Shown: piece by piece, positions 31,409-40,301 of the stretch
Position numbering within the stretch: position 1 is the stretch's first letter
How the letters are laid out: every line of letters begins with the position of its first letter
Source: Campylobacteraceae bacterium
GTDB lineage: Bacteria; Campylobacterota; Campylobacteria; Campylobacterales; Sulfurovaceae
Direction: 5' to 3'
Assembly (NCBI GenBank): GCA_027014605.1
Contig: JALWDJ010000026.1
Span: forward strand, 1-44,070
Length of the DNA: 44,070 nucleotides
The notes under the pieces: model-generated
What the model was told of the DNA's origin: nothing
Database searches by the model: none
Seen by the model: only the letters and a program-made list of their open reading frames with translations
Translations under genes and position numbers: made by a program

Positions 31409-33001
31409 CTATCTAAATTTATCTGTCTTTAAAGGTTTATCTAATTGTTTTAAAAGAGTAGTAATCTTGGTTTTAACTCCTAAAAGATTTAGATATACTA
31501 CATAATTTGTTAAAACTTTTTTTCCATACTCTTTACTCTCTACATAATCAATAAGCTCCATACTTAAATATGGTTCATATCTTCCTCTCTTAAACATATT
31601 ATCTTTTCTAAGAGTTCTCTTTGTAAATCCTATACCACCATTATATGCATAGGCTAGAAATAGAGGGTGATATAGAAATCTATTTAGATAGTCTAAATGT
31701 CTATTAGCATAATCAATAGCTACAAAAGGGTCAAAAATATCATCTAAATCAATATTCTCTTTTTTCTGTTTTGCTATATGTTTAATAAGAAATGGCATAA
31801 TCTGCATCATACCTAAAGCGTACGATGGAGATACAGAGGCTGGTACAAATCTACTCTCTTGTCTCGCAATTGCATATATTAATGCTACTCTTTTTACATC
31901 TTTCCCAATCATTGCTTCTCTATATGGCATTGGGAAATATTGTTCTTTATAGTTTGATGCTTTCTCTTTTAGATAACAATAAACTCCTTCTGTTATGGTA
32001 CTTCTATAGTTATCTGCTAGAAACTCCATAGTCTCTGGGTGTTCTCTCATTTCTACTTTTACTCTCTCCCAATCTATTGGACTATATGGGTTAAAATACT
32101 CTATTAGATGTAGTCCTAAATTTGGTGTAATAACTTTAGGATATGGTTTATGTAATATATCTCTAGCTCTAAGTGTAAATAGATTAATTTGACTACTATT
32201 TAATAATAATTTTAAATAACTTCTATCTTTAGTTAAAAGATAGAGCCAAAAGTTACATTTATCATGAACTGACTGTTTTTTATTTTTCTCTTTTGCTCTT
32301 TTAATATAATAGATTGCCCTATCTATTTTATTAAATTCAACTGCATTCATAGCAAGTAGAAAAGTACTCTTATATGGTAGAGTCTCTGTAGGTGTATTGA
32401 GTAGAGATTTTTTTAGTTTATCTAAAGCAGGAGTAGTAATTATCTTAAAAAGAGTTAATCTAAACTGCTTCTCTAAAACCAATTTTTCTAACTGCTCTTT
32501 AGAGAAGGGATAGTTAAAGTATCTTTTTCTATATTTGGTTTTACATCTATTAAAAATATAACATTGAGTTTTAGGTGATACACTTTTTAGTGCTTTAAAA
32601 GGATTATCATTAGCCATTACTTTTAATACATCAGAGTGTTGTCCTCTCTTTAATATCTTTTGGTAGAGTTTTTTGAGACTACTTTTACTCTTTTTAATTG
32701 CCACCTCTGGATAAATAATAAAATTAGATGGGTCTTTTTGAATTTTAATTTTTTTATCTGGAACATACCCAATAACCTTTTTAATAGCTTTTTTTATCTT
32801 ATAGCTTTTTCTTTTTGCTAAATTATAAGCCTCTAGTGCCTCATCTCTATTTGGTTTTGTCTCATTTAGAAACCTCCAAATATAATAGTCTCTACTATAT
32901 GAGGAGGGCATCTTTTTTATCTCTTCTAAAGAGAATACCTTAGCATATATAACAGTAGTAGTTAATATAAAAACTAAAATAGCTTTTATTAAAAAAGTCA
33001 T
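31409..33001 (-). CDS. slt: Soluble lytic murein transglycosylase
   Basis: A 530-residue periplasmic enzyme that cleaves peptidoglycan glycan strands to 1,6-anhydro products. The signal peptide is MTFLIKAILVFILTTTVIYA. A long alpha-helical region (about 25-350) resembles the superhelical U/L domains of Slt70. The C-terminal SLT domain (about 360-500) has IYAIARQESRFVPASVSPSYALGMMQIMP, with catalytic Glu in ARQESRF, and YANRHLDYLNRFLYHPLFLAYAYNGG. It starts one base after the yggT gene ends. The gltX-yggT-slt order is one I recall from Campylobacter. Confidence 0.93.
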   Translation of the reverse strand: MTFLIKAILVFILTTTVIYAKVFSLEEIKKMPSSYSRDYYIWRFLNETKPNRDEALEAYNLAKRKSYKIKKAIKKVIGYVPDKKIKIQKDPSNFIIYPEVAIKKSKSSLKKLYQKILKRGQHSDVLKVMANDNPFKALKSVSPKTQCYIFNRCKTKYRKRYFNYPFSKEQLEKLVLEKQFRLTLFKIITTPALDKLKKSLLNTPTETLPYKSTFLLAMNAVEFNKIDRAIYYIKRAKEKNKKQSVHDKCNFWLYLLTKDRSYLKLLLNSSQINLFTLRARDILHKPYPKVITPNLGLHLIEYFNPYSPIDWERVKVEMREHPETMEFLADNYRSTITEGVYCYLKEKASNYKEQYFPMPYREAMIGKDVKRVALIYAIARQESRFVPASVSPSYALGMMQIMPFLIKHIAKQKKENIDLDDIFDPFVAIDYANRHLDYLNRFLYHPLFLAYAYNGGIGFTKRTLRKDNMFKRGRYEPYLSMELIDYVESKEYGKKVLTNYVVYLNLLGVKTKITTLLKQLDKPLKTDKFR

Positions 33002-33280
33002 CTATATAGCCATTACCGAACGCATTAAGAGTGTATCTATAAACTGTAACCCAAATATAATTACAATTGGCGATAAATCAATACCTGAAAATACAACAAA
33101 AGGCATCTTTCTTCTTACAAAAGCAAAAGCTGGTTGAGTAAGACGGTTTAATACATCAACAATAGGATTTCTTGGGTCTGGCTGGACAAAAGAGAGTACA
33201 GCAGCTATAATAATAACCCAAATATATAGACTAATAACTGAATGTATTAGTTGAACAATAGCAAAAATTAGTGCATTCAT
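33002..33280 (-). CDS. yggT: YggT-family membrane protein
   Basis: A 92-residue protein with two membrane regions (about 5-33 and 68-90). It matches the YggT family: VISLYIWVIIIAAVLSFVQPDPRNPIVDVLNRLTQP is the conserved core, with S-F-V/D-P-x-N-P and L-T-x-P motifs. Function is not established; in other bacteria yggT lies near cell-division or cofactor genes. It overlaps the upstream gltX-like gene by four bases and abuts slt. Confidence 0.92.
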   Translation of the reverse strand: MNALIFAIVQLIHSVISLYIWVIIIAAVLSFVQPDPRNPIVDVLNRLTQPAFAFVRRKMPFVVFSGIDLSPIVIIFGLQFIDTLLMRSVMAI

Positions 33281-34461
33281 GAAGCAACCTCCAAAATATA
33301 AGATTTAATTAGTAGATATATATCACTAAGTTCAGGGCTATTTTCTCTCCCTGTTAATAAAATCTGTAGTGGTTTAGATAAGCTCTCACCCTCTAACCCA
33401 CTTTTAACTCTAATATACTCTTTAAACTCATCAAAACTCTCAATCATAGGACTATCTAAAATAATACTCTCTATAATCCTCATCTCTCTAGCCCATTGAT
33501 TGTTAAAATTTTTTGGCTTAAATATACTCTTAATCCTACTCTCTAACTCATTGAGGGTAGTAGCCTCATTTAGATATAACTTAGCAAGTTTTCCAATAGA
33601 GCTATCTGAAAATCCAAAGACTTTAGATAACTCTTTATTATCCAATCTCTTTAAATGCTCCCTATTTATATATCTAAGTCTATCTATATCAAACTTATAA
33701 GAGTTGGAGATTTGATTTAAATCAAACCACTCAATAGCCTCTGGAAGAGTAAATATCTCCTTAGGTGGATTTTTATATCCCAAAAGAATTAGATAATTTA
33801 ATATCGCATCTGCAATAAAACCTTGCTTAAATAGAGCTTTAATAGTTATATTATTCTCATTTTTATTATAGATATGTATATATTTAGTATCTTCTAAATA
33901 GTCTAAAGACTCTTTTATATATATCTCTTTAGGGGTTCTATCTTCCTCCTGCTCATCTCTAATAATAAGATTTATACCACTAATCATATCATCACAGGCT
34001 GAGGCAAATATATCTGTGGGAGTTCCATCTGACTTTAAGATTATAAAATCTCTAATTTCATCTAAAGGTGTTATAACTTTACCTTTTATAATATCACTAT
34101 AGATAATATCTTTTTTAGGCTTTTTAATAGCAATAAAACTCTCTTTAGTTTTCTCTTTAATCTCTTCTAAATTGGAGTTACAGATAAAGGCATCTCCCTT
34201 TTTTAGAACTCTAAATGCTAAACTCTGATAGATATTGAGATGTTCACTCTGATGATATACTAAATCATGTTTAATAGCAAATTTTTCTAAAATCATCATA
34301 ATTTCACTATCTTTGCCTTTAATATCTTCTCTATTGATAGTAATATCATCTATACGCACTAAAAATCTATCTTCTCTCTGTTGTGCAACAATATAGTTTA
34401 ATATAGCAACTCTAAGAGAGGCTATATCCATATCTATTGGCAATGAGGCAAATCGAAGCAT
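33277..34461 (-). CDS. Glutamyl-tRNA synthetase homologue lacking HIGH and KMSKS motifs
   Basis: A 394-residue full-length open frame, alignable by eye with GluRS (usually about 430-465) from MLRFASLPIDMDIASLRVAILNYIVA through the anticodon-binding domain (KPLQILLTGRENSPEL at the end). Where active enzymes have H-I-G-H/N, this has DIAS (12-15). The P-S-P-T-G before it is L-P-I-D-M. I-E-D-T-D is IDDIT (37-41), R-G-E-D-H is RDEQE, and the whole G-K-K-M-S-K-R segment is missing at about 198-206 (NKNENNITIKALFKQG). ATP binding and adenylate formation should be impossible, yet the frame, a good AGGAG and the syntenic position with yggT-slt are kept. It could be a regulatory or tRNA-binding paralogue, or a decaying gene. 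Confidence 0.82.
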   Translation of the reverse strand: MLRFASLPIDMDIASLRVAILNYIVAQQREDRFLVRIDDITINREDIKGKDSEIMMILEKFAIKHDLVYHQSEHLNIYQSLAFRVLKKGDAFICNSNLEEIKEKTKESFIAIKKPKKDIIYSDIIKGKVITPLDEIRDFIILKSDGTPTDIFASACDDMISGINLIIRDEQEEDRTPKEIYIKESLDYLEDTKYIHIYNKNENNITIKALFKQGFIADAILNYLILLGYKNPPKEIFTLPEAIEWFDLNQISNSYKFDIDRLRYINREHLKRLDNKELSKVFGFSDSSIGKLAKLYLNEATTLNELESRIKSIFKPKNFNNQWAREMRIIESIILDSPMIESFDEFKEYIRVKSGLEGESLSKPLQILLTGRENSPELSDIYLLIKSYILEVAS

Positions 34462-34531
34462 TAACTCTCCTATAAATTATTGTCATAATTATAATCTATT
34501 TTATCAAAATATCAAATATTATTATAAATTT

Positions 34532-37385: not shown

Positions 37386-40301
37386 TTAACTACTCTCTTC
37401 ATAATGAAGCTGTAATCCCTCACTACTCATCATAAATCCACTGATATAGATTTTACCACTATGTACTAACTTATGGTGTCTTTTACATAATGGAATAAGA
37501 TTATATTTATGATTTTTATTAAAACTATTCTCTTTTTGAGGAGTTATATGATGAATATCCTCTGCCATCTCATTACATAAAGCACATTTTGTTATATATA
37601 GATTTTTATTATATCTACTTCTCTTTTTATTCTTTATACTCTTTAATTCAGATTGATTTTCAATAATAGACTCTCGTATCCTATAGGCATTTTTTAAAAA
37701 GCTCTTATCCATATGTAGAGATTTTGCAAACTCTAGCCCATATAGTGAACTTCCCATACCAAGTTGTAATTCTCTATTATATATTAATTTATCACTGTCC
37801 TCATCATATTTTACCCCAAGATGTAAAAAGATAAGCTCTTTAATATCTTGAAGTTCATTAATATTTTTTAGTTGATGTAGATGTGTTGCAAATATAAATG
37901 TGGCTTTCAGCTCTAATAGTTTTAAAATTGCTCCTGATACTATAGCAACACCTGACTCTGTCTCTGTACCTTGTGAGATTTCATCTCCTAAGATAAGGCT
38001 ATTTGAGGTTGCACGATTAAAGATATTTTTTAGCTCCATCATCTCTACTGAAAATGTAGATAACCCCTTATATAGATTATCTTTAGATACAATTCTAGTA
38101 AATATCTTATCGTACATACTAAATTTAAGCTCAACTGCTGGAACAAAAAAACCTGCTTGAGCTAGAATTACAGCTAAGCCAATACTCTTCATAAGTGATG
38201 ATTTCCCTGACGAGTTAATCCCATATAGTAAAACTCCACTAACTCTCTTTCCACCACTAGCATTTAGTGTAATGTGGTTATGAGTTGTTTTAATCCCATC
38301 TCCTAGATATATATCATTTGGAACATATATTCCACTCTTCTCATTAGCTTCAATAATTAGGTGTCTAAGTCCAATAGCCTCAAACCCTTTTCCCTCTTTG
38401 GTAATAATTGGTCTAGTTAGATTTAACTCTTTTGCAGACTTTGCATTAGATACTGCCACATCAATATCGGCAATAAATGAGATAATATCATCAAGTAGTC
38501 GTGAAAATCTTTTATCTAACTCATCTAAGCTATCTATATATCTACTCTTTACAAGGGCGACTAACTTTACCTGATTACTATCATGGTTTTGTGTTATCTC
38601 TTCAAATAGAGGTGAGTTTATCTTTACACTATTTTTAAGTATCTTATATCTAAAGTCTTTAAAGAAGTGATGAGTCTTATCAATAGTTACAAAAGATTCC
38701 TTTAACTCTTTCTCTATCATCTTAAATCTATTTTTAGTTAGATTTATAGTAAAACCCTCACTCTCCAAATATCCTATCTCTGCATATACTTTTTGAGAGC
38801 TATTTTTCTTCTCTTTTTGGATAAATAGTTTATCTATATGAGCTATAACCTCTTCTAGTTTTGCAATCTCACTCTTCTGCTTATCTAATAGATTATCTAT
38901 AATAGGGTAAGTTCCCTCTCTAAATATATTATCATCAATCTGGTCTATTCTAAACTTAGCACAGATATTTAAATCAAATCTATCTTTTAAGTAGCTCTTA
39001 AACTCCTCTACACCCTCATATAGCTTATTATCATAATTAATTTTATCTTTAGATAAATCTTTTAGAAGATTAGATATAGCATATAGTGACATATTCATAT
39101 ATGTAAGCTCTATTGGATGTAGTTTTTGTAATTTTATCCTTCTTAATATTCTCTCTAAATCATAGATATTTTTTAGATGAGTCTCATATCTTTGACTATT
39201 TTGCATAAGTTTTGAAGATAAATTATATCTTGCCTCTAATATCTCCTTATCTACGATGGGAGATAGAAGTCTCTCTTTTAGTAGTCTCTTTCCAAATGCT
39301 GTAGATGTTTTATCTATAAGTTTTAAAAGAGTTAGCTCTTTTGTATCTTTTGATATTACTCCTAACTGTTCTAACGCATTATTTCCAAGATATAGATATT
39401 TACTTCCACTTAAAAAAATAGGTCTATTCATCTTCTCAATAATAGCCTCATCATGCTCTATAATAAAATCAATCAATATAGCTAATGACTCTGTAGTATA
39501 TGGATATCTCTCTAAATCCATATACTCAATAGGAGATAGAAATGAATTTATCTGATAAACTCTCTTAAATAATTCATTTTGATAATCTATTTTACATCTA
39601 TTAGAGTTAAAAGATATATGGTATTGATGAAACTCTAAATAGTTACTAATCCACTCCCTATCTATAGATTTATTATCAATAGTAATAATAATCTCAGCTG
39701 TATTATATGTCTGTAGAAGATTAAATAGCTCATCTAATGCATAAGTCTTATCATCTCTAGTTGAGTGCATCTCATTTACTATTGTTTTACCTGTTGTTAC
39801 ATCAATAGCACTATACCCTACTGAATATATTCCAGCATTTTCATCTATAATAACAGATACAATATTATTTTCAGTAACTTCAGTCTGATACTCAAAATTT
39901 GTCCCAGGTGAGATAATATTTGAGATATATCTTGTAATTTTAGGTGGAGTTCCTTTCTGTTTAATCATTACAATAGTATATTTTTTAGTATCTATTAATC
40001 TGGCTATATATCTCTCAATAGATACAGTAGGAACACCTGCAAGTAGTGGATTTTTAATAGAGTTTTTAGCTATTGCTTTATTTTTTCTAGTTAATTGGAT
40101 ATTTAAGAGAGTAGCTATCTCTTTGGCTTTTCCTATTTTTAGTTCATCATTATTTACCTCATATATCTCAAAAAAGCTACCTATCTCTATTAATATAATA
40201 GTATTATTTCCATATTTTTTTTCAAAATATTCTTGAAGTTCAAAATATATCTCTGTAAGTAACTTACCCTTTTGGTTTAAAATTTTTGATACTTTTTCCA
40301 A
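37386..40301 (-). CDS. mutS: MutS7-type MutS with C-terminal HNH endonuclease domain
   Basis: A 971-residue MutS. The mismatch-recognition motif is GSFFEIYE (41-48; Phe43 and Glu45 take the F-x-E role). A connector and a helical lever/clamp (about 290-660) lead to the ATPase: [10 protein letters not shown] (near 695), [21 protein letters not shown] and FATHLHQL. The tail (about 905-947) is an HNH nuclease: [29 protein letters not shown], with Cys 906, 909 and 939 for structural zinc and paired His 917-918. MutS-HNH fusions define MutS7, known from Epsilonproteobacteria, giant viruses and octocoral mitochondria. The fusion could nick DNA without MutL; no mutL is in the window. Confidence 0.92.

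Follow-up and report, generated by a model that had tools for sequence, protein, structure and literature searches.

The window, by which we mean the whole stretch of DNA that was analysed (44,070 nucleotides), carries on its reverse strand the three genes of a conserved locus: gltX2 (33277..34461), which encodes a 394-residue orthologue of the second glutamyl-tRNA synthetase, GluRS2, judged non-catalytic from its motifs; yggT (33002..33280); and, as the third gene, slt for a lytic transglycosylase (31409..33001). The gltX2 frame starts with ATG, TATAGGAGAGTTA stands immediately 5' of it, and a Shine-Dalgarno-like AGGAGAG lies upstream at 34465..34471 on the same strand. Among the orthologues, 47 of 52 degenerate ones and 50 of 52 that are intact or less altered have such a core ahead of the GluRS2 start. 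At the other end, the yggT ATG overlaps the gltX2 stop codon (ATGA), and the yggT Shine-Dalgarno sequence, GGAGGT (33287..33292, reverse strand), sits within the last gltX2 codons. This overlap with its embedded Shine-Dalgarno sequence is found in most loci, with intact and degenerate orthologues alike.

In profile searches the protein matches the bacterial GluRS family TIGR00464 (1.5e-59, 202.1 bits, under the curated cut-off of 289.95) and Pfam tRNA-synt_1c (1.2e-27), and the class I signatures of TIGR00464 (HIGH, KMSKS) are missing from it. Against the YadB profile it scores 76.5 bits, below the cut-off of 276.7, and its C-terminal half is present, which places it outside GluQ-RS. Its best-matching orthologue and the gltX2-yggT synteny assign it to the Campylobacterota GluRS2. 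A scan of genome contigs with a single-sequence query matched one locus. The original prediction, an intact and complete frame of the GluRS family with a good ribosome site at a gltX-yggT-slt locus, agrees with the profile matches, the start region, and the orthology of the locus by sequence and gene order.

Only three PF00749 proteins are encoded in the genome: GlnRS-YqeY (753 aa), GluRS1 (464 aa, with intact HIGG, EDTD, RGDDH and KLSKR) and the protein in the window. The count of gltX and glnS genes that had been proposed therefore gives two GluRS, the second paralogue being expected, and in addition a GlnRS that the earlier reading did not contain. Since GlnRS is present, the window gene is the GluRS2 of an organism able to charge tRNA-Gln directly, and its catalysis could be lost for that reason. 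Where AsnRS is absent, Asn-tRNA is made through GatCAB. No AsnRS match above the family cut-off was found in the genome and GatB is present, which presumably leaves Asn-tRNA dependent on GatCAB.

Lost motifs and retained constraint

Every class I catalytic motif is gone from the window protein. On the reverse strand, the HIGH position reads DIAS (residues 12-15, 34417..34428; HIGN in intact orthologues), the EDTD position DDIT (residues 38-41, 34339..34350) and the RGEDH position RDEQE (residues 168-172, 33946..33960); after N199 the KMSKS loop is missing (around residues 197-200, 33862..33873), and RFAPSPTG has become RFASLPI with one residue missing. These are the changes that had been named beforehand, the altered P-S-P-T-G loop included, and from them the paralogue can be read as non-catalytic, as proposed.

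To what extent is the rest of the protein kept? Six families, each compared in its active and its degenerate state, indicate which residues are lost and which are retained. Among the positions conserved in at least 95% of active enzymes, P6, T9, H13, G15, N16, R45, R116, R174, Y181, N182, G200, D202, H203 and the KMSK loop are mostly lost, as are K389, K399, K401 and F404 of the anticodon domain. In contrast, 81 positions, about half of them polar, are kept at 85% or more in the degenerate set, including R3, R18, N23, R37, D40, C94, C96, C121, D188 and D189 and, further along, N263, N308, H311, K336, K359 and K428. The ATP site (HIGH, KMSKS) is lost, as are conserved anticodon-domain residues and parts of the pocket for glutamate and the tRNA end; the scaffold and the helical domain remain under purifying selection. 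The expectation that the anticodon-binding half would be better preserved is borne out for the helical region 278-300, where the segment LSKVFGFSDSSIGKLAKLYL (278-297, 33571..33630, reverse strand) has a family-weighted conservation of 0.58 in degenerate against 0.59 in active proteins. It does not hold further on, where E357, E359, S362 and Q366 of the window protein replace K399, K401, F404 and R408 (active-enzyme numbering), residues that we take to be tRNA contacts. The region around 321-340 is equally conserved in dead and active proteins; an apparently higher conservation of 320-340 in the degenerate set gave way to this equality after family matching. The extreme C-terminus (E433, Y430) is more conserved in degenerate proteins, for E433 at least because the yggT ribosome site sits there. 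A structure prediction from two sequences had a mean pLDDT of 41 and was discarded as too poor for surface mapping.

The frame is not decaying freely. Between window gltX2 and its 85% identical orthologue in the sister genome G015 there are no indels, dN is 0.077 and dS 0.287, and the ratio is 0.27 (CI 0.19-0.39; here and below, Nei-Gojobori estimates with bootstrap limits, not codon-model likelihoods). For the same two genomes the ratio is 0.08 for yggT, 0.14 for slt, 0.15 for GluRS1 and 0.20 for GlnRS, so that constraint on the dead enzyme is relaxed less than twofold relative to the active synthetases. Ten pairs in which both members have lost the motifs give 0.16-0.36, with upper limits of at most 0.50. 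By comparison, neutral simulation at matched dS yields mean ratios from 0.9 to 1.8, with open frames in at most 0.7% of cases, whereas nearly all degenerate GluRS2 frames are still open, at full length in dozens of species. The gene therefore shows none of the marks of a pseudogene (dN/dS near 1, stops, frameshifts). The original prediction had set a ratio near one, or frameshifts in sister strains, as the sign of plain decay and neither is seen; the very recent decay that it allowed for is contradicted by the low dN/dS of pairs already sharing dead motifs. In its lost residues and purifying selection the protein resembles a synthetase-derived pseudoenzyme of the HisZ kind, with the fold assigned by sequence homology only. 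Low dN/dS is constraint on the protein and points to no particular function, and selection against misfolding of the translated protein could contribute to it.

GlnRS and the state of GluRS2 across the order

The search for glnS and GluRS2 covered 60 relatives and, across the order, a sample of 160 genomes (completeness at least 95%); partial glnS matches counted as present, and 16 catalytic positions were scored in the GluRS2 orthologues retrieved. In genomes with glnS, 60 of 65 orthologues score 12/16 or less and all but one (64 of 65) reach no more than 14; the median is 8, and scores spread continuously from 16 down to 2. In genomes without glnS, 47 of 48 score 14-16 (median 16); these orthologues were a non-random choice that included the best matches together with several of the lowest-scoring ones, taken on purpose. 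Fisher tests give p of about 1e-24 to 1e-28 depending on the threshold, values that kinship inflates, and for this reason (INDEPENDENCE) genera were counted instead. Ten genera hold both states (g1, g4, g7, g19, g26, g29, g43, g51, g59 and g60), and each of the ten has at least one member with an intact GluRS2 and no glnS, and at least one with glnS and a degenerate GluRS2 (sign test, p 0.002). On a GatB tree of 33 genomes the state changed at least 7 times, and the starred branches give 5 independent pairs, none of them contrary; a tree of the GluRS2 C-terminal half has 13 changes for catalysis, 13 for glnS and no contrary pairs; both trees are approximate, with long branches, and on the starred branches alone the sign test of the second, with few pairs, does not reach p <0.05. 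The active site has apparently been lost many separate times in glnS-bearing lineages, a number that recombination swapping a dead copy for an intact one would reduce. Degenerate GluRS2 also occurs in single-contig genomes (for example G039, G101, G107, G145, G150 and G156) and is thus not an assembly artefact.

A few genomes depart from this pattern. G148 (L057) has an apparently intact GlnRS beside a fully motif-bearing GluRS2 (HIGD), perhaps through recent acquisition. G130 (L092), 96% complete in roughly 480 contigs, has a degenerate GluRS2 (5/16) and no glnS was found in it; a contig may be missing, or the exception may be real. G026, degenerate and at first without a detected glnS, was dropped as an exception, as the GlnRS-YqeY tail is present in a fragmented assembly. 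In G019 (L054) glnS matches come in pieces, in different frames and with gaps between them, which would come from errors in the assembly or else from decay of glnS, and GluRS2 is only mildly altered (13/16). Three nearly complete genomes of the order sample (G049, G052 and G056) matched neither glnS nor GluRS2; their single GluRS may be non-discriminating.

Once GlnRS is present, gltX2 can also be lost. GluRS2 is gone from 9 of the 52 glnS-bearing genomes of the order sample (G034, G041, G044, G064, G075, G077, G090, G147 and G185), about 83% keeping the gene. It is shortened in G072 and G164, and in G006, of the same genus as the window genome, what is left is a small remnant, followed by an intact yggT that has a GGAGG of its own. 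These nine losses and the remnant imply that some backgrounds, at least, can do without the role of gltX2. In 21 of 45 glnS-bearing genomes glnS adjoins gltX2, the two genes sharing a strand or lying on opposite strands depending on the family, and in G185 the glnS-YqeY frame is followed directly by yggT. In G009, G013, G034 and G075, which have glnS and lack GluRS2, yggT was not found (two of these genomes have a completeness of 95% or less), a hint that the locus can be lost as a unit.

Possible roles of the retained protein

In relatives lacking glnS, GluRS2 should glutamylate tRNA-Gln, after which GatCAB amidates the product. We think it probable that GlnRS replaced this charging and that the dead protein was retained for a non-catalytic role: GlnRS would have taken over tRNA-Gln, making the GluRS2 reaction redundant and releasing the constraint on catalysis, and a job independent of charging would have kept the protein. 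Most likely the protein would bind or regulate a partner by means of the scaffold and helical domain that it has kept, with GatCAB, GlnRS and the yggT and slt products as candidate partners. Of the new role envisaged in the original prediction, the constrained non-catalytic protein stands, while tRNA binding is weakened as a proposal, anticodon-domain residues being lost with the catalytic ones. A further step, that the Campylobacterota GluRS2 always had a second, non-charging function which the gain of GlnRS exposed, leading to a parallel turn to a pure pseudoenzyme in many lineages, is one we hold tentatively and short of probable; if true, the active GluRS2 of glnS-lacking relatives would be bifunctional.

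The protein might instead still bind tRNA or glutamate without catalysis, as a tRNA chaperone, glutamate sensor or GatCAB adaptor. R3 (99%) and E39 (84%), presumably glutamate-pocket positions, are conserved in the degenerate set, as are C94, C96 and C121, which resemble a zinc knuckle (97-99%). However, K399, K401 and F404 of the anticodon domain and Y181, N182, G200 and D202 are mostly lost, and the window protein has D38 for E39 and no knuckle (S96, C121 deleted), so we consider such a role rather unlikely. We also regard it as improbable that the frame serves only as a translated leader for yggT and slt, its product useless and perhaps obliged only to fold harmlessly. With the yggT ribosome site embedded in the last part of gltX2, an upstream stop or frameshift would lower translation of both downstream genes; the overlap is conserved at most loci in both states, and even the 299-codon gltX2 of G164 ends in the same kind of overlap. 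Coupling may therefore help to keep the frame open, but it is insufficient alone, as avoiding stops would leave the amino acids free to change: neutral simulations, with scoring limited to stop-free codons, give dN/dS of about 1 against the observed 0.16-0.36, about 40 polar positions are kept across families, and yggT survives without gltX2, with its own Shine-Dalgarno sequence, in G006 and others. Plain slow decay, in which GluRS2 is a pseudogene in the making whose stops are still to come, would fit the continuous scores of 16 to 2 and the shortened, lost or remnant copies, yet it is highly unlikely given ratios far below 1 in lineages already sharing dead motifs, essentially no open frame in neutral simulation at the observed dS, and full-length frames in dozens of species. 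On dN/dS, plain decay and coupling alone were each rejected as a sufficient explanation.

The preferred reading, replacement by GlnRS with retention of a non-catalytic protein, bears on published work. The epsilonproteobacterial GluRS2 of the H. pylori type is tRNA-Gln-specific, and a 2014 survey noted six epsilonproteobacteria with both GluRS2 and GlnRS, where GlnRS was possibly non-functional, as argued from GluRS2 always being present (PMC3927822); the catalytic residues argue against that view and point the other way. The window protein is orthologous to the H. pylori type by sequence and locus (gltX2-yggT-slt) and has the same domain order by alignment, but differs in lacking all catalytic motifs and in the presence of GlnRS. 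Thermotoga maritima GluRS2, as cited in PMC3927822, is reported to be inactive and to charge neither tRNA-Glu nor tRNA-Gln. As far as that citation describes it, it is likewise a GluRS paralogue without charging, a loss that we read from sequence for the window protein; it differs in belonging to another lineage with a duplicated catalytic domain, whereas the ancestor here was of the H. pylori type and inactivation has repeatedly accompanied GlnRS. Among duplicated synthetases, a 2022 review lists HisZ and others and, for GluRS, YadB (PMC9437257). HisZ and other synthetase-like paralogues are non-catalytic regulators (PMC9437257), and the window protein would likewise be a synthetase scaffold without aminoacylation; it differs from HisZ, which has HisG as its known partner, in that the change here is parallel in many genera. 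GluQ-RS/YadB is also a GluRS paralogue with profile similarity, but it is catalytic and without an anticodon domain, whereas the window protein keeps the C-terminal half and has lost catalysis. In the open-access literature we found no earlier description of parallel GluRS2 inactivation with GlnRS. The order would offer many parallel natural experiments in which Gln-tRNA came to be made by another route and the former enzyme stayed on without its chemistry, and whether an aminoacyl-tRNA synthetase has a hidden second role becomes directly testable.

Elsewhere in the window, 37386-40301 on the reverse strand encodes a MutS-like protein of 971 aa; its C-terminal part contains an HNH-like segment (CALCNEM...HHITP...CKRHHKLVH). 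The matches to Pfam MutS_I, III and V are strong, those to HNH_2 and DUF968 weak, and we take the protein to resemble the MutS7 type of epsilonproteobacteria and octocoral mitochondria.
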